From Micromonospora thermarum (GTDB lineage: Bacteria > Actinomycetota > Actinomycetes > Mycobacteriales > Micromonosporaceae): DNA of 64,000 bases. Positions within the stretch are counted from its first letter, which is position 1. Every line of letters starts with the position of its first letter. The position numbers were made by a program, and so were the translations under genes. This document shows, piece by piece, positions 17,265-26,720 of the stretch. The notes beneath the pieces are model-generated. The model ran no database searches and had not been told where the DNA came from. It worked only from the letters and a program-made list of their open reading frames with translations. Location of the stretch: contig NZ_JAATEO010000007.1 of NCBI RefSeq assembly GCF_012034245.1, positions 124,001-188,000 of the forward strand. Reading direction: 5' to 3'.

Positions 17265-17612
17265 ATGACCGCGTTCGCCGTCGCACACCTGCGTACCCCG
17301 ACCTTCGACCATGAGGACATCCACCGCTACCTGGAACGGATCCAGGCCACTCTGGACCCGTTCGGCGGGCGGTTCCGGGTGCACGGCCCGCAGGTCGAGG
17401 TGATCGAGGGGGAGTGGCCGGGCACGATCGTCATCATCGAATTCCCGGACCGGGAATCGGTCCGCTCCTGGTACGACTCCCCGGCGTACCGGGAGATCCT
17501 GCCGCTGCGGACCCGGCACATCGAGGGGTCCGCGATCATCGTGGACGGGGTGCCGGCCGACTACGATCCGGCGCGCACCGCCGCGTACCTCCGCGCCCAA
17601 GCGGCGAGCTGA
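17265..17612 (+). CDS. DUF1330 domain protein
   Basis: 115 residues with the dimeric alpha+beta barrel pattern of DUF1330: YLERIQATLDPFGGRFRVHG, then WPGTIVIIEFPDRESVRSWYDSP split over the central strands. These are small cytoplasmic proteins of unknown function, structurally near EthD and antibiotic-biosynthesis monooxygenases. ATG at 17265 with a GGGGAGGG site. Single gene ended by a strong hairpin. Confidence 0.88.
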   Translation: MTAFAVAHLRTPTFDHEDIHRYLERIQATLDPFGGRFRVHGPQVEVIEGEWPGTIVIIEFPDRESVRSWYDSPAYREILPLRTRHIEGSAIIVDGVPADYDPARTAAYLRAQAAS

Positions 17613-17622
17613 GTGGACAGCG

Positions 17623-17661
17623 GGGCCCCCGGCACGACGTCCGACGTCGTACCGGGGGCCC
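17623..17661. terminator. Bidirectional hairpin terminator
   Basis: Arms of 18 bp (17623-17640 and 17644-17661; GGGCCCCCGGCACGACGT) with one mismatch and loop CCG, between the convergent stops of the DUF1330 gene and dacB. Confidence 0.85.
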
Positions 17662-17707
17662 GGAACGAACGGGCCTCCGCCGGAGCCCCCCGCCCGCTCG
17701 TCCGTTC

Positions 17708-19279
17708 TCAGCAGGCGATGGGTTTCACCCAGGAGCACTCGCGGTCCTCCGGAGCGGCCGGCGGTTCGGTCACGGTCCGCGCGGCGGTCGCGCCCCTCTC
17801 CGTGTACGACGCCAGCGCGACGGCGATCTGGTCCTCCAGCCCCTTCACCGACGAGGCGAGGTAGTTGTTCAGCAGGATGGAGAAGGCCAGCAGCCGGCCG
17901 TCGGCGTCGGTGACGTAGCCGGACAGGCCGGAGACGCCGGTGAGGCTGCCGGTCTTGGCGTGCACGTTGCCCGCCGCCGGCGTTCCCCGCATCCGGCTGC
18001 GCAGCGTCCCGCCCACGAAGCGCTCTGCCTCGCCGGCCACCGGCAGGGCCGCGTACCAGGCGGGGAACCAGGTCTCGGCGCGGACGGCGGTGAGCAGGTC
18101 GACGAACTCGGTCGCCGGGACCAGGTTGCGCCGGGAGAGCCCGGAGCCGTCCCGCTGGCGGAAGGTCGTCGGGTCCATGCCGGCGCCGGCCACGTACCCG
18201 TTGATCGCGGCGATCCCGGCCGACCAGGTGCCGGACCCGGCGAGCACCCGGCCGATCTCCTTGGTGAGGACCTCGGCGTGCCCGTTGTTGGAGAGCTTCA
18301 GGAACGGCACCATCAGCTCCGCCAGGGTCATCGATTCGTGCCGGGCCACCTCGACCGCCCCGACGGGCGTGGGCCGGCCGAGGACCGTGCGGCCCAGCAC
18401 CCGTACGCCGTGCTCGCGCAGCGCCGAACGGAAGACGTCGGCCGCGTACCCGGTGGGCTCCCAGACCGTGACCCAGTCGCTTTCCGGCGCGTCCCCGACG
18501 GCGATCTGGCCGGTGACCACGACGGTGTTGCCGCCGTGTACGCGCTCGAAGGAGATCGACGTGTCGCCGTCGGCGACGGTCGTGGCCCGGTTGTCGATGC
18601 GGAGGTACCCGGTGGCCGGCGTCGTGGTGACCACCGGCCGGCCGCCGGGGGTGGCGGCCGGGGCGGCGTGGACGATGACGGTGCCCGCGTCGTAGTCGGT
18701 GTCCGGCGCGACGGTCAGCGCGGACACCTGTGCCGCGTAGTAGTACGGCTCGTCGTCCCACGTCCAGTCCGGACCGAGCCGGGTGTCGTCGTAGCGGGTG
18801 TCGTCGGCGACCAGGTTCCCGGTCACCACCCGGATGCCGGACGCGGCCACCTTCGCGGCCAGCGCGTCGTAGTCCGCCGCGAGCATCGTCGGGTCGCCCC
18901 CGCCGCGCAGGTGGAGGTCGCCGGCGACGACCGTGCCGCGGCGCGGTCCGCCCGCGAGCACGCCGGTGTGGAAACGGTGGTCGGGGCCCAGCAGTTCCAG
19001 GGCGGCGGCCGAGGTCAGCAGCTTGGTGTTGGACGCCGGGACGAGGCGGCGGTCGCCGTTGCGGTGGTAGACGGTCTCGCCGCTGGCGGCGTCCTTGACC
19101 ACGACGGAGGCTTGGGCGCCGGCGAGGCGGGAGTCGGCGAGGATCGCGTCGATCGTGGCGTCGAGCCGGGTCGCGGCGGGGGTCGGCGACTCGGCCGTCG
19201 CGGTGGGCGCGCCGGCGGTGGCCGCGGCGGCGACGACGGCCACCAGCGCGAGCGTCCGGGGAAAGAGACGACGATGCAT
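17708..19279 (-). CDS. dacB: D-alanyl-D-alanine carboxypeptidase/endopeptidase (PBP4, S13)
   Basis: 523 residues with a Sec signal peptide (MHRRLFPRTLALVAVVAA, cleavage near ATA-ES). All three penicillin-binding motifs are present: SNTK at 83-86, SNN in FLKLSNNGHAEVL, and KTG in HAKTGSLTG. The long insertion between the first two motifs is typical of peptidase family S13. It cleaves the terminal D-Ala and/or cross-bridges of peptidoglycan outside the membrane. The C-terminus has an extra ECSW...IAC cysteine pair. An inverted repeat 45 bp upstream of the ATG may be an operator. Confidence 0.93.
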   Translation of the reverse strand: MHRRLFPRTLALVAVVAAAATAGAPTATAESPTPAATRLDATIDAILADSRLAGAQASVVVKDAASGETVYHRNGDRRLVPASNTKLLTSAAALELLGPDHRFHTGVLAGGPRRGTVVAGDLHLRGGGDPTMLAADYDALAAKVAASGIRVVTGNLVADDTRYDDTRLGPDWTWDDEPYYYAAQVSALTVAPDTDYDAGTVIVHAAPAATPGGRPVVTTTPATGYLRIDNRATTVADGDTSISFERVHGGNTVVVTGQIAVGDAPESDWVTVWEPTGYAADVFRSALREHGVRVLGRTVLGRPTPVGAVEVARHESMTLAELMVPFLKLSNNGHAEVLTKEIGRVLAGSGTWSAGIAAINGYVAGAGMDPTTFRQRDGSGLSRRNLVPATEFVDLLTAVRAETWFPAWYAALPVAGEAERFVGGTLRSRMRGTPAAGNVHAKTGSLTGVSGLSGYVTDADGRLLAFSILLNNYLASSVKGLEDQIAVALASYTERGATAARTVTEPPAAPEDRECSWVKPIAC

Positions 19280-21775: not shown

Positions 21776-23572
21776 GTGGACCAACCGGCGATCTCCGACT
21801 ACGGGTTCCTCTCCGACTGCCGCTCCGGGGCGCTGGTCGGCCGGGACGGCTCGGTCGACTGGTGGTGCCCGGACCGGTTCGACGGTCCCGCGGTGTTCGG
21901 GCGACTGCTCGACCCCGAGGCGGGGCACTGGTGCCTGGCACCGGTCGCTGCCGGCCGTCCCGGACACCGCGTGGAGCGCGCGTACCGGCCGGACACGCTG
22001 GTGCTGCGGACCGTGCACCACACCCCGGAGGGCAGCGTCGCGGTCACCGACGCGCTCGCCGCTGAGCTGGGCGCCCGAGGCCACCGGCTGGGCATGAGCT
22101 CGCCGGCGGTGCTGCTGCGTACCGTCGAGGGCCTGTCCGGGCGGGTACGGATGGCGTCGGACTTCGCCCCGCGCCCCGACCACGGCCTGCTCACCCCGTA
22201 TCTGCACGACCAGCCGGACGGCGCGGTGCTGGCGGTGGCCGGGGCGACGGTGCTGGAGCTGCGCTCGGACGGCCCGCCGCTGCGCGCCGGCCCGGACCGG
22301 GTCCGCACCGAGTTCGACGTCGCCGCCGGTGACACCGTCGGCTTCACCGTCGCCTACGGGCGCACGTACGGTGAGCGGCCGGCCCGGCTCGACCCGTCGA
22401 CCATGATGGCCGAGACGGTGCAGGCGTGGGAGGCGTACCGCGAGACCCACCAGTACGAGGGCCGCTACCGCGACCTGGTGCGGCACAGCGCGGTCGTCCT
22501 CACCGGCCTCACGTACACCCGCAGCGGCGCGGTCGCCGCGGCGCTCACCACCTCGCTGCCGGAACGGATCGGCGGCGACCGCAACTACGACTACCGGTAC
22601 GCCTGGCTGCGCGACTTCTCGATGACACTGCGCGCCCTCTGGGTGGCCGCCTGCCCGTCCGAGGCGTCCCGGCTCTTCGCGTGGGCGGCCCGCTCGATCG
22701 GCCGCCCCGGCCCGGAGCCGGTGCCGGTGCTCTTCGGCCTGGAGGGCGAGCGGGACATCTCCGAGCACGACTCGACGCACCTGCGCGGATACGCCGGCAG
22801 CCGGCCGGTGCGCTTCGGCAACGACGCCTGGCGGCAGCGGCAGCTCGACGTGCCCGGCGAGATGATCTCGGCGGTGTGGCGGTTGCACCACCTGCTCGGG
22901 GATCCCCTCGACGAGGAGCTGCGCGAGATGGTGCTCGGCCTGGCCGATGAGGTCGCCGACACGTGGCACCTGCCGGACCGGGGCATGTGGGAGACCCGGG
23001 ACGCCGACCGGCACTACGTGTCGTCGAAGGTGCTCTGCTGGGTGGCGATGGACAAGGCCGTCGCGCTGGCTCCCCGGCTGGGCGAACGCGCCGACGCCCG
23101 CCGGTGGGCGGCGATCCGGGACGAGATCCGGACCAGCGTGCTGCGCGAGGGGTGGAACGAGACCGTCGGGGCGTACACCGGTGCGTTCGGGTGCCGCGAG
23201 ATAGACGCCTCCGCGCTGTTCCTGCCGGTGGCGGGGTTCCTCCCGGCCACCGATCCGCGGATGCGCGCCACCATCGAGGTGATCGAGCGCGACCTGGGCA
23301 CCGACAGCGGGTTGGTCCGGCGTTGGGACACCGACCCCGCCGGATTCCTGCTCTGTTCGTTCTGGCTGGTGGAGTGCCTGGTGCTGGCGGGGGAGCGGGA
23401 GCGCGCCGAGGCGCTGTTCGAGCGGGTGGTGGGCCACGCCAACGACGTCGGCCTGCTCAGCGAGCAGATCGACCTGCACACCGGCGCGCAACTCGGCAAC
23501 ACACCGCAGGCGCTCTCGCACATCGGCCTGATCAACGCCGCGTGGCGGCTCACCGACCCGACATCGGACTGA
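21776..23572 (+). CDS. Glycoside hydrolase family 15 (trehalase/glucoamylase-like)
   Basis: 598 residues. The N-terminal domain ISDYGFLSDCRSGALVGRDG and the (alpha/alpha)6 barrel motif NYDYRYAWLRDFSMTL are diagnostic of bacterial GH15. Catalytic acid and base are expected at Glu in LPDRGMWETR and Glu in VGLLSEQIDL, both present. Mycobacterial members of this intracellular group are alpha,alpha-trehalases; glucoamylase activity is the alternative. No signal peptide. GTG start at 21776. Its 3' end overlaps by 23 bp the end of the convergent threonine synthase gene. Confidence 0.9.
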   Translation: MDQPAISDYGFLSDCRSGALVGRDGSVDWWCPDRFDGPAVFGRLLDPEAGHWCLAPVAAGRPGHRVERAYRPDTLVLRTVHHTPEGSVAVTDALAAELGARGHRLGMSSPAVLLRTVEGLSGRVRMASDFAPRPDHGLLTPYLHDQPDGAVLAVAGATVLELRSDGPPLRAGPDRVRTEFDVAAGDTVGFTVAYGRTYGERPARLDPSTMMAETVQAWEAYRETHQYEGRYRDLVRHSAVVLTGLTYTRSGAVAAALTTSLPERIGGDRNYDYRYAWLRDFSMTLRALWVAACPSEASRLFAWAARSIGRPGPEPVPVLFGLEGERDISEHDSTHLRGYAGSRPVRFGNDAWRQRQLDVPGEMISAVWRLHHLLGDPLDEELREMVLGLADEVADTWHLPDRGMWETRDADRHYVSSKVLCWVAMDKAVALAPRLGERADARRWAAIRDEIRTSVLREGWNETVGAYTGAFGCREIDASALFLPVAGFLPATDPRMRATIEVIERDLGTDSGLVRRWDTDPAGFLLCSFWLVECLVLAGERERAEALFERVVGHANDVGLLSEQIDLHTGAQLGNTPQALSHIGLINAAWRLTDPTSD

Positions 23573-24755
23573 GCACCGGCAGCCCGCCCACGTCCACCGA
23601 GTCCGGGTACTTCAGGCCGGCGCCGGTGTTGAGCACCACGACCCGCTCGCCGGCCCGGATCCAGCCACCCGCCCGCAGCTGCCGCGCCGCCGTCAGGCAG
23701 GCCGCCCCCTCCGGGCAGAGCAGCAGCCCCTCCCGCGCGGCGAACCCCCGCAGGTCGGCGAGGAGGTCCTCGTCCGCCACGGCGAGGGCCGTGCCCGCGC
23801 TCTCCCGCAACGCGGTCAGGATCAGCTCGTCGCCGAGCGGGGCCGGCACGGTGATGCCGAACGCCACGGTGTGCGCGTCGGCCCACGGCTCGGCCCGCTC
23901 CGCGCCGGCGGCGAAGGCCCGGACGATCGGCGCGCAGCCGGTCGACTGCACGGCCACCAGGCGGGGCAGCCGGTCGGTGATCCAGCCCAGCTCGCGCAGC
24001 TCGTGCAGCGCCTTGTGGATGCCGATCAGGCCGACGCCGCCCCCGGCGGGGTAGACGATCACGTCGGGCACCTGCCACCCGAGCTGCTCGACGATCTCGT
24101 ACCCCATGGTCTTCTTGCCCTCGAGCCGGTACGGCTCGCGCAGCGTGCCCGCGTCGAAGAGGGCGCCGCCGGCGTCGGCGACCAGCCGTGCGACGTGCCG
24201 GCCGGCGTCGCTGATCAGCCCGTCGACCAGCCGCAGGTCGGCCCCGGCGGCGACGCACTCGCGGCGGCAGATGGTGGGCGCGTCCTGCGGCATGACGATG
24301 GTCGCACCCAGCCCGGCCCGGGTCGCGTAGGTGGCCCAGGCGGCACCCGCGTTGCCGTTGGTCGGCATGGCGATCCGTTCGACGCCCAGCTCGCGGGCGC
24401 GGCTCACCCCGACGGCGGCGCCACGCGCCTTGAACGACCCGGTCGGGGTCAGCCCCTCGTCCTTGACCAGCAGGTCCGGGATGCCGATCTCCGCGCCGTA
24501 CGCCGGGGCGCGCCACAGCGGCGTCCAGCCCTCGCCCAGCGTGGTGACGTGCCCCGGGTCGGCCACCGGCAGCAGCTCCCGGTACCGCCACAGGTCGGCC
24601 GGCCGGAGCCCGAACCGCTCCGGGGTGACCACCTCGGCCACCGCCGCCAGGTCGTAGCGGGCGAACAGCGGGGACCCGCAATCGCACAGGTTCTGCGGCT
24701 TGCCGGCGTCGTGCTCCCGGCCGCAGCGTGGACATTCCAGGTGGGTCAGGTACAC
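23550..24755 (-). CDS. thrC: Threonine synthase (PLP-dependent)
   Basis: 401 residues, fold type II PLP enzyme converting O-phosphohomoserine to threonine. The N-terminus has a zinc-ribbon-like Cys set (Cys8, Cys11, Cys24, Cys26). The PLP lysine is Lys109 in PTGSFKARG; NGNAGAAWATYA binds the phosphate side and VIVYPAGGGVGLIGI is the glycine-rich loop. Actinobacteria usually have another thrC next to hom and thrB, so this copy may be a paralogue with altered substrate. The start codon lies 27 bp after the end of the phosphoesterase/ligase-like gene, so they are probably co-transcribed. Confidence 0.82.
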   Translation of the reverse strand: MYLTHLECPRCGREHDAGKPQNLCDCGSPLFARYDLAAVAEVVTPERFGLRPADLWRYRELLPVADPGHVTTLGEGWTPLWRAPAYGAEIGIPDLLVKDEGLTPTGSFKARGAAVGVSRARELGVERIAMPTNGNAGAAWATYATRAGLGATIVMPQDAPTICRRECVAAGADLRLVDGLISDAGRHVARLVADAGGALFDAGTLREPYRLEGKKTMGYEIVEQLGWQVPDVIVYPAGGGVGLIGIHKALHELRELGWITDRLPRLVAVQSTGCAPIVRAFAAGAERAEPWADAHTVAFGITVPAPLGDELILTALRESAGTALAVADEDLLADLRGFAAREGLLLCPEGAACLTAARQLRAGGWIRAGERVVVLNTGAGLKYPDSVDVGGLPVLSPMSGR

Positions 24756-24782: not shown

Positions 24783-25826
24783 TCAGCTCGTGTCGATGCT
24801 CAGCCAGTGGCGGCTGCGCCGGCCCGGCTCGTACGCCGAGTCGAGGCGCTTGGCCACCACACCCGGCAACCCCTGCTGACGGGCCGTCCGCAGGGACTCG
24901 GCGCCGGTGCCGGGGAACCAGGGCGGAGTCTGCCAGTGGGTGCCGCCCAGCGCCAGCCCGTCGAGCAGCTCCCGGCGCTGCGCGTACGGCAGCCCGACGC
25001 TGGTCACGCCCTCCAGCCACAGCAGGTCGAACAGCAGGAACTGGGCGTCGGCGGTGGCCCGCCCACCGCGGGCCGGGCGTACCCGACCCGCCTTGTCGAT
25101 GCGCACCAGGACGCCGTCGAGCACGGCCTCCGTCGGCGCCAGCGTCTCGGCGAGGTCCCGCAGCCACGGGTACGTCCCGGTGATCTCCTCGTCGGTCTCC
25201 GACAGCAGCCGCAGCCGGCCGCCCGAGACGTACGCGACCGCCCGGACGCCGTCCCAGCGCAGCTCGTACCCCCACTCCTCCTCGTCGCGGGGCAGCTTCC
25301 GCGCCGGTGTGGGGTGCATCGGGCGGACCAGCTCCGGCATGCTCTCCCAGCCCTCCGGCGGCGGGTCGGTGCGCCGGACCATCCAGTCCCGCCCGTCCCG
25401 GCCACCGGCGGCGAAGAGCACGTACCGGCCGCTGGTCCGCTCCCCGTCGAGGGTCACGATGACCTCGTCGTTCCGCCACTTCTCGCAGCGGTAGGTTCCC
25501 CGGTCGTGGATCGTCATCCGGCCGCCGCCGTACTCCCCGGCGGGGATCTCGCCGGAGAAGTCGAGGTACTCCATCGGGTGGTCCTCGGTGTGCACGGCGA
25601 GGTGGTTGCGGCCGGTGTCCCGCGGCAGGCCGCGTGGCACCGCCCAGGAGGCGAGGACGCCGTCGTGCTCCAGCCGCAGGTCCCAGTGCAGGCTGCGGGC
25701 GTGGTGCTGCTGGATGACGAAGCGGGCGCCGTCCGGGCCACCCGCCTCCGGGGCCCGCTCCGGCACGGGTTCGGGGGTACGCGCAGCGTCCCGTTTGCGC
25801 CGGTACTCCTCCAGCCGGTCAGCCAC
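24783..25826 (-). CDS. LigD-type 3'-phosphoesterase fused to a catalytically dead DNA ligase domain
   Basis: 347 residues. Residues 33-155 form the LigD phosphoesterase domain with all metal and catalytic residues in place (HHARSLHWDLRLE with His41/His47/Asp49/Arg51, and EDHPMEY with His83, Tyr87). Residues 165-347 follow the ATP-dependent ligase nucleotidyltransferase fold, but motif I reads ELRWDG (Arg190 for the adenylated Lys), the motif III glutamate is Val (LDGVLV), the motif IV glutamate is Pro (LPGVVAK), and the OB domain is missing. End-healing without ligation is the expected activity, perhaps in NHEJ-type repair. GTG at 25826 with GGAG site chosen; GTG 25844 is possible. Confidence 0.85.
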   Translation of the reverse strand: MADRLEEYRRKRDAARTPEPVPERAPEAGGPDGARFVIQQHHARSLHWDLRLEHDGVLASWAVPRGLPRDTGRNHLAVHTEDHPMEYLDFSGEIPAGEYGGGRMTIHDRGTYRCEKWRNDEVIVTLDGERTSGRYVLFAAGGRDGRDWMVRRTDPPPEGWESMPELVRPMHPTPARKLPRDEEEWGYELRWDGVRAVAYVSGGRLRLLSETDEEITGTYPWLRDLAETLAPTEAVLDGVLVRIDKAGRVRPARGGRATADAQFLLFDLLWLEGVTSVGLPYAQRRELLDGLALGGTHWQTPPWFPGTGAESLRTARQQGLPGVVAKRLDSAYEPGRRSRHWLSIDTS

Positions 25827-25934: not shown

Positions 25935-26720
25935 ATGGATCTCGACCAGCCCACCGTCCTGCTCTCCGGCGAGGTGCGGATACCCCTGCTCGGCTTCGGT
26001 ACGTGGCAGATCACCGGACCGGCGGCGTACGAGGCGGTGCTGGCCGCCCTCGACGCCGGTTACCGGCACATCGACACCGCCACCATGTACGGCAACGAGG
26101 AGGAGATCGGTCGGGCGGTCGCCGAGAGCGGCCTGCGCCGGGAGGACGTCTTCATCACCACGAAGCTGCCGCCGGCGCGGGTCGGCCGGGAGCAGGAGAC
26201 GATCGAGGCGAGCCTGCGCGCGCTCGGCACGGACCACGTCGACCTGTGGCTGCTGCACTGGCCGCCGTCGAACCCGGCGGACAGCATCCCGGTGTGGCGG
26301 GAGATGCTCGCCGCCCGGGACGAGGGCCTGGTCCGCACGGTCGGGGTCAGCAACTTCAGCACCGCCCAGATCGACGAGCTGATCCAGGCCACTGAGGAGA
26401 CCCCGGCGGTCAACCAGATCCGGTGGAGCCCGTCGCTGTACGACCGGCAGCGCCACCGGGACCACCGGGACCGGGGCGTCGTGCTGGAGGGCTACAGCCC
26501 GTTCAAGACCAGCGACCTGACCGACCCGGTTCTGGTCCGGATCGCGGCCGCGCACGGCGTCTCACCGGCCCAGGTGGTGCTCCGTTGGCACATCGACCAC
26601 GAGATCGTGGCGATCCCGAAGAGCGTGACGCCGGAGCGGATCCGTACCAACGCCGACGTCTTCGACTTCTCCCTCACCGCCGAGGAGATGCGCGACATCG
26701 ACGCGCTCGGCGGCTCCTGA
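25935..26720 (+). CDS. Aldo/keto reductase
   Basis: 261 residues, NADPH-dependent (beta/alpha)8 reductase. Tetrad Asp47 (HIDTATMYGNEEE), Tyr52, Lys77 (ITTKLPP) and His108 (LLHWPP) is intact, as is the cofactor segment IPKSVTPERIRTNADVFDF. Slightly shorter than the AKR at 4718-5569 but of the same subgroup. ATG at 25935. Divergent from the phosphoesterase/ligase-like gene; substrate unknown. Confidence 0.92.
   Translation: MDLDQPTVLLSGEVRIPLLGFGTWQITGPAAYEAVLAALDAGYRHIDTATMYGNEEEIGRAVAESGLRREDVFITTKLPPARVGREQETIEASLRALGTDHVDLWLLHWPPSNPADSIPVWREMLAARDEGLVRTVGVSNFSTAQIDELIQATEETPAVNQIRWSPSLYDRQRHRDHRDRGVVLEGYSPFKTSDLTDPVLVRIAAAHGVSPAQVVLRWHIDHEIVAIPKSVTPERIRTNADVFDFSLTAEEMRDIDALGGS

Follow-up and report, generated by a model that had tools for sequence, protein, structure and literature searches.

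A LigD-type phosphoesterase fused to a putatively non-catalytic ligase domain in Micromonospora thermarum and other actinobacteria

The gene and its catalytic residues

The window, the whole 64,000-nucleotide stretch of Micromonospora thermarum DNA that was analysed, carries a gene joining a LigD-type 3'-phosphoesterase (PE) to part of a DNA ligase. The gene, its domains and its neighbours are as follows.

24783..25826, minus strand: PE-pseudoligase gene, GTG start, 347 amino acids (open reading frame and Pfam)
25362..25826, minus strand: LigD 3'-phosphoesterase domain with N-terminal arm, residues 1-155 (Pfam LigD_N at 39-137)
24786..25349, minus strand: dead ligase nucleotidyltransferase domain, residues 160-347, without an OB domain (Pfam and structure comparison)
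23550..24755, minus strand: downstream neighbour, a PLP-dependent enzyme; adjacency only in Micromonospora and a few near genera
25935..26720, plus strand: upstream divergent neighbour, an aldo/keto reductase; local synteny only, in Micromonospora and near genera

The PLP-dependent enzyme is presumably threonine-synthase-like. In Pfam the window protein matched LigD_N at residues 39-137 (E 4e-37) and DNA_ligase_A_M at residues 182-342 (E 2e-18). The PE domain matched 3p43, 3p4h and 3n9b in both sequence and fold. It passed the PE profiles TIGR02777 (163.7 bits, cut-off 144) and PF13298 (127 bits, cut-off 31.1), and the protein also passed PF01068 (ATP-dependent DNA ligase). The LigD equivalog cut-offs were missed, with 83.4 against 373.2 bits for TIGR02776 and 382.3 against 989 bits for NF007210. 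No Pfam match to the OB domain (PF04679) was found in the window protein; the intact relative L048 has one. The C-terminus coincides with the end of the nucleotidyltransferase domain in the alignment and structure comparison with the M. tuberculosis LigD ligase, in agreement with a sequence-only reading of the locus that had reported no OB domain. The nearest named relative is Micromonospora L088 (87% identity).

Ligase positions were numbered from an alignment to the solved ligase of M. tuberculosis (Mtu) LigD, 1vs0. PE positions were compared with P. aeruginosa (Pae) LigD. All residues below were placed by alignment, and the codon of R190 was also read directly.

25632..25634, minus strand: R65, conservative change of a PE Lys (Pae K66)
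25602..25604, minus strand: H75, change of a PE Arg (Pae R76)
25263..25265, minus strand: E188, retained (Mtu E479, contacts adenine)
25257..25259, minus strand: R190, codon CGC, replaces the adenylated nucleophilic Lys of motif I (Mtu K481)
25242..25244, minus strand: R195, retained (Mtu R486, contacts ribose)
25197..25199, minus strand: E210, replaces the motif Ia Arg (Mtu R501, ATP phosphates)
25110..25112, minus strand: V239, replaces the motif III Glu (Mtu E530)
24864..24866, minus strand: P321, replaces the metal-binding motif IV Glu (Mtu E613)
24849..24851, minus strand: K326, retained motif IV Lys (Mtu K618, contacts adenine)
24798..24800, minus strand: S343, replaces the first motif V Lys (Mtu K635)
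24792..24794, minus strand: D345, replaces the second motif V Lys (Mtu K637)

The loss of essential ligase residues described by the sequence-only reading (Lys to R190, motif III Glu to V239 and motif IV Glu to P321) was confirmed. Its statement that the PE residues are all kept was too broad: 12 of the 14 positions checked are kept, and the counterparts of Pae K66 and R76 are R65 and H75. We take these two to be functional PE positions, and their change counts against an active PE. His at the Pae R76 position is also frequent among intact relatives (47/128). The metal and phosphate ligands are all present (H41, H47, D49, R51, H83 and Y87), and the residues corresponding to Pae R14, D15, E21, Q40, S61 and E82 are kept too. 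The available text of PMC8656161 gives His42, His48 and Asp50 as Mn-binding and Arg52, His84 and Tyr88 as the phosphate site. Residue 15 is printed there as Arg, yet it is Asp in the solved Pae sequence by our own count. Judged from sequence, the window protein is a LigD-type PE fused to a ligase nucleotidyltransferase domain stripped of its catalytic residues.

Intact and dead ligase domains among relatives

The survey covered 121 genomes of the window's family (Micromonosporaceae), with a match in 113, many of these being other ligases. Sequences were also drawn from genome contigs (the best 80 of 584 being kept), from 396 genomes across the phylum and from two more families, represented by 150 and 120 genomes, to which Amycolatopsis coloradensis (L130) and Actinomadura pelletieri (L132) belong. 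The 291 matching loci gave 276 aligned proteins after removal of duplicates. Twenty rows (L057, L067-L074 and L289-L299) with a lost PE, remnants, a split gene or PE-polymerase (PE-POL) fusions were left out of the class counts. The remaining 256 PE-ligase proteins, a sample that is not random by species and counts close relatives separately, comprised 128 intact at all four catalytic positions, 127 without the Lys (the dead class) and one truncated protein (L274) placed in neither class. The motif I Lys, motif III Glu, motif IV Glu and motif V Lys were each present in 128/128 intact proteins. A long tail followed in 126 of these, and the other two (L112 and L118) reach contig ends.

In the dead class the nucleophile was kept in 0/127, the motif IV Glu in 1/127 and the first motif V Lys in 1/127. 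The Lys position held A in 47 proteins, R in 34, D in 15, S in 10, E in 7, W in 5, G in 4, V in 2 and T, N and L in one each. The motif III Val noted by the sequence-only reading is real in the window protein but does not hold across the family, where 86/127 dead-class proteins retain Glu. Long tails were seen in 14/127, nine of them of OB length (eight in the Amycolatopsis group and L260) and five polymerase. L260 (genome G655) has an OB-length tail, and of the four positions only the motif I Lys is changed (to Asn); it is possibly the youngest loss.

All 57 rows of the window's family had lost the Lys, the replacement being R in 26, A in 10, S in 9, E in 7, W in 2 and D, T and G in one each. 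The family alignment proposed earlier thus showed the loss to be common to the 127 proteins, and a recent single change from a Lys-bearing homologue was not seen in the window's family, where the replacement residue varies. A recent single mutation or sequencing error was ruled out by the loss common to these 57 rows. PE-pseudoligases were found in 46/121 family genomes, including a copy split in two (G031) and a copy with an internal stop (G120). Intact PE-LIG-OB proteins were found in 9/121, none of them among the 46.

By the Nei-Gojobori method the median dN/dS of the dead domain was 0.32 in the Micromonospora type (16 rows, 120 pairs), 0.25 in the Nonomuraea type (7 rows, 21 pairs) and 0.13 in the Amycolatopsis type (6 rows, 15 pairs). 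The PE values for the same sets were 0.25, 0.30 and 0.13, respectively. In two intact sets the ligase domain had values of 0.15 and 0.13, and the PE had 0.14 and 0.06. The dead domain is constrained, more loosely than intact domains in two of the three sets. A decaying pseudogene is ruled out by the values of 0.13-0.32 in all three sets, with individual copies broken or lost (L039, L057, L058 and L070). The loss is more than chance: it is common to 127 proteins, and purifying selection acts on the domain.

The AlphaFold2 model of the window protein, built from an alignment with 66 named relatives, had a mean pLDDT of 92. Residues from about 160 to 347 of this predicted model superposed on the M. 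tuberculosis LigD ligase (1vs0/6nhx/6nhz) with Z 25.0-25.3 and rmsd 2.0-2.1 over 183-185 residues. The nucleotidyltransferase fold is thus predicted to be kept in the dead domain. The earlier view that selection had kept the fold and not ligation is supported by purifying selection, a confidently predicted fold and missing catalytic residues.

Five proteins of about 630-656 amino acids have three domains in the order PE, dead ligase, polymerase (L150:5989-7938 from Pseudonocardia humida, L279, L280, L282 and L283). The polymerase was confirmed by Pfam in L150 and by same-frame similarity in the other four. Pfam detected neither an OB domain nor a ligase domain in L150; its predicted model still has the ligase fold (Z 22.1 to 6nhx). 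L150 should be a LigD-like protein that does not seal. A polymerase was in or near 10 dead-ligase loci, being fused in these five and nearby in L153, L247, L248, L270 and L271.

A maximum-likelihood tree was built from 74 rows, 28 of them dead, with the trait columns left out. Going between the intact and dead states takes at least 7 changes on the tree of the whole protein; on the PE tree, which is poorly resolved, it takes at least 14. A single clade of dead proteins, defined by residue and not by tree, was rejected by AU tests on the whole protein without trait columns (p=0.0005) and on the PE alone (p=7e-9). In narrower AU tests, for which the groups were picked after seeing the tree, the union of the Micromonosporaceae and Streptosporangiales groups gave p 0.017 and that of the main Amycolatopsis group with L247/L270 gave p 0.08, which is not rejected. 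The first dead group is Micromonosporaceae. Another is made up of genera of the Streptosporangiales, with Actinomadura, Nonomuraea, Streptosporangium and Sphaerisporangium represented by named loci, and has some Micromonosporaceae of genus g12 nested within it. Further groups are the Amycolatopsis group, L247/L270 adjoining the intact L251, and Pseudonocardia humida L150 with L279 and L282. Cellulomonas L128, L129/L163/L165 and L260 are isolated rows. On these trees the loss of ligase residues appears to have arisen several times, the exact count being uncertain as several forks are weak. Transfer or recombination between lineages may lie behind the scattered dead proteins. Recurrent loss with the shape kept suggests that the dead ligase serves a function in its own right.

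In G096, a genome of the window's genus, only a 3' remnant is left beside a conserved neighbour (L070:5001-5330), and the genome has no PE match. In G031 the gene lies in two same-strand pieces about 14 kb apart (L057:2001-3425 and 17504-17824), as if split by an insertion. The PE-pseudoligase gene is dispensable, because G096 has only the remnant, G003 of the same genus has no PE match, the G031 copy is split and the G120 copy has an internal stop.

The dead domain could be only a folding platform or linker for the PE, with neither ligand nor partner. The extreme losses (11 residue types at the Lys position), the escape of the L150 ligase domain from Pfam, and the genomes in which the gene is lost or broken all fit such a relic. 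We consider it rather unlikely, as the dN/dS of 0.13-0.32 over the dead domain is about equal to that of the PE, K326 persists as a sole lysine, and the domain is kept between PE and polymerase in L150 and its four relatives. In addition, archaeal PEs without a ligase domain exist (3p43 and 3p4h), and we take these to be active phosphoesterases.

Ku, separate ligases and the gene neighbourhood

The search for a separate ligase and Ku that had been suggested for this genome found both. The genome has one PE match, which is the window gene, one Ku, four polymerase domains and five ligase-domain genes, the window gene included. Ku, an intact ligase 155 bp away from it and a polymerase frame lie side by side as separate frames on contig C45; the window gene is on C89. 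A Ku-linked ligase with all four motifs was present in 18/18 genomes read (the window's own and 17 others of its family), of which 10 were chosen since a ligase beside Ku was already visible and 8 by the place of Ku alone. Seventeen of the 18 carry a full PE-pseudoligase gene and one (G096) the remnant.

These data bear on the proposal that the protein is still a ligase by another route, using a different lysine or an OB domain supplied in trans. The persistence of K326 and of the adenosine-contacting residues would be in its favour. The joint loss of the nucleophile, motif IV Glu and first motif V Lys in 126/127, the absence of an OB-length tail in 118/127 (five of which have polymerase there) and the other intact ligases of the window's genome make it scarcely credible.

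Where enough flank was available, Ku was near the gene in 26/55 intact loci versus 3/70 dead ones (Fisher p 1e-8, on rows that are not phylogenetically independent). The three dead loci near Ku are L247, L270 and L271, a group adjoining an intact relative. Proximity of a LigD gene to Ku is usual and not universal, with 75% within 10 kb in conventional NHEJ (available text of PMC7719229). In the window's family the neighbourhood gave no link of the dead-ligase gene to Ku, and the neighbours are metabolic. Among the 40 largest neighbour clusters of 91 loci, no partner besides the gene itself was common to the main dead-ligase lineages. The clusters examined were local synteny or apparent antisense shadow frames, plus Ku or polymerase at a few loci.

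Ku was present in all 46 family genomes with a PE-pseudoligase and in 68/75 without the gene (Fisher p 0.04). This co-occurrence is weak evidence because 114/121 family genomes have Ku anyway. No other PE match was found in 26 of the 46, and a second PE match was found in 19, some weak and short. Weak PE matches of a second type (about 63-75 bits) occurred in 12 family genomes (G002, G024, G028, G031, G048, G055, G065, G068, G075, G106, G115 and G119). These are in short frames of about 120-190 amino acids, with 424 in G075, and probably represent a divergent small PE family.

On the 11.8-Mb contig of G555 two equal-score matches lie near opposite ends in opposite orientation (C1:76196-77293, plus strand, and C1:11716279-11717376, minus strand), as in the terminal inverted repeat of a linear chromosome; one of them is L271. 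In a check for plasmid or phage origin, PLSDB gave 507 matching records. Of these, 121 covered more than 80% of the query, all at less than 60% identity and mostly rhizobial. The best matches were a chromosome-size Nonomuraea record and plasmids of Tsukamurella, Arthrobacter and Rhodococcus. None of 36 phage records covered 80% of the query. An anti-phage defence system was also considered and rejected, no PADLOC family being matched at E<=0.01.

Possible roles and known systems

The residues kept in the dead domain allow for a role in reading adenylate. The domain would still bind adenosine, whether as AMP, as a different adenine nucleotide or as the AMP that caps a stalled 5'-adenylated DNA end, and would position the PE at breaks of aborted ligation, where the 3' end would be healed before an active ligase returns. 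In Mtu LigD the side chains of E479 and K618 contact adenine and R486 contacts ribose. K481, E613, R501, K635, K637 and R629 serve as nucleophile or bind metal or phosphates, and E530 reaches the ribose via water (PMC8656161, available text). All three adenine and ribose contacts are kept in 120/127 dead domains, and in 117/117 once the five PE-polymerase fusions and five isolated rows are set aside. In the same 117 rows K481 was kept in 0, E613 in 0, K635 in 0, R501 in 4, K637 in 2 and E530 in 77. K326 is the sole Lys of the domain in 44/127. Against such a role, G193, D267, R284 and Y332 are kept in 127/127 and no nucleotide contact is named for them in the available text of PMC8656161. Since these non-contact invariants are equally kept, E188, K326 and R195 may be structural, for example in a salt bridge, and structural constraint is a sufficient explanation for the kept adenosine contacts. 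Moreover, the phosphate ligand R629 is still kept in 74/127, the ribose-linked E530 is lost in 41/127, the window protein included, and the five fusions keep E188 in 0/5 and K326 in 3/5. Nor is there an OB domain, the part of a ligase that closes over its nucleotide. We think adenylate reading improbable, though not far-fetched.

Instead, a 5'-dRP/AP lyase might survive in the dead domain, and the protein would then clean both ends, the 3' end by the PE and the 5' end by the lyase. A Schiff-base lyase uses a lysine. Changes of B. subtilis LigD equivalent to R190, K326, S343, D345 and P321 abolish ligation and leave 5'-dRP lyase near wild type (PMC4770248, available text), so the losses seen here need not remove it. 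However, K326 is the only lysine in the 44 domains mentioned above and its B. subtilis equivalent is dispensable for lyase in the same text. The lyase residue could also sit in the missing OB domain. A retained lyase is very unlikely on this evidence.

The explanation that we prefer, with middling confidence, is split end joining, in which an active PE would be the healing subunit and the dead ligase a docking or positioning module that brings the PE to Ku-bound ends. A former PE-LIG ligase would have become redundant for sealing once a separate ligase stood beside Ku. The PE would have stayed as a 3'-end-healing subunit, presumably active, and the ligase half would have dropped its chemistry and OB domain with its predicted fold retained. 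By analogy with LigD, the dead domain may dock on Ku or on the assembled complex. Direct binding between the core of Ku and the LIG domain is reported for M. tuberculosis LigD (PMC9638933, available text), and a Ku interaction with the B. subtilis LIG domain has been argued (PMC13201618, available text). Docking is thus the simplest reason to keep the shell, as Ku binds the LIG domain directly. Against docking on Ku, the contact on LIG could be on the OB domain, which is absent here. The metabolic neighbourhood of the gene, the second PE matches in 19 of the 46 genomes and the dispensability of the gene also weigh against the split end-joining explanation.

The sequence-only reading had proposed an end-cleaning enzyme whose ligase-like part may bind DNA ends or a partner. 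The PE residues are mostly kept and the ligase part appears non-catalytic, as it had supposed, but binding of DNA ends fits poorly with a slightly acidic domain. The median net charge of the dead domain was -3 in 57 rows of the window's family versus +1 in 128 intact rows, and a DNA-binding surface is not supported. A partner, putatively Ku, agrees better with the published Ku-LIG binding. The recurrence of the loss, the survival of the adenosine-contacting residues and the three-domain proteins with a dead ligase were not part of that earlier reading.

A more speculative view, which we hold to be a little less probable still than adenylate reading by itself, is that the ligase domain repeatedly became an adenosine-reading docking module, with its adenine and ribose contacts retained and its chemistry gone, delivering a 3'-end healer to Ku-bound or 5'-adenylate-stalled breaks. 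In Pseudonocardia and relatives the enzyme so delivered would be a healing-plus-polymerase one.

The usual picture of end joining in bacteria has Ku working with a single multidomain LigD. Many actinobacteria appear to have divided the work, with a conserved dead ligase left on the end-healing enzyme. Recurrent loss with the fold kept makes a non-catalytic role of a DNA ligase domain testable. The relatives offer intact versions, a version changed at a single residue (L260), dead versions with an OB-length tail (the Amycolatopsis group) and dead versions without OB. Profile-based genome surveys would be likely to list such a protein among the PE-LIG ligases, because the window protein passes PF01068 and architectures are defined by domain profiles in the available text of PMC7719229.

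The combinations of PE, LIG and POL have already been surveyed (PMC7719229), and split end-joining genes are already known in Streptomyces (PMC5124664), both as far as the available texts go. A search of the open-licence PMC literature yielded no paper describing a PE joined to a conserved dead ligase domain. In the Streptomyces system Ku, ligase, polymerase and nuclease functions are on separate genes, as here, and the available text of PMC5124664 differs in describing no dead ligase. The same text reports no nuclease-domain gene in S. ambofaciens and 0 to 1 across Streptomyces.

The closest proteins are the actinobacterial PE-LIG-OB ligases without polymerase, of about 470-495 amino acids (L048 and Saccharothrix L107). 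They share the order of PE and nucleotidyltransferase with about 50-56% identity, and such a ligase is the likely ancestor of the PE-pseudoligase. They differ in having an intact KxDG, motif IV Glu, motif V Lys and an OB-length tail, and, unlike dead-ligase loci, intact loci often have Ku nearby, LigD-like ones included. In mycobacterial LigD (POL-PE-LIG, NF007210) model positions 298-656 align to window residues 2-343. Unlike it, the window protein is without polymerase, OB domain and ligase catalytic residues, and scores 382 of 989 bits. Archaeal LigD-type PEs (3p43 and 3p4h) have the PE fold and metal-site residues in common with the window protein, which alone has the ligase-derived domain. 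PE-POL-type fusions of the same two families (L072-L074 and L289-L299) are also without a ligase-derived domain, and their partner, named from motifs alone, looks like a polymerase. In these fusions, as in the window protein, the PE is split from the active ligase.
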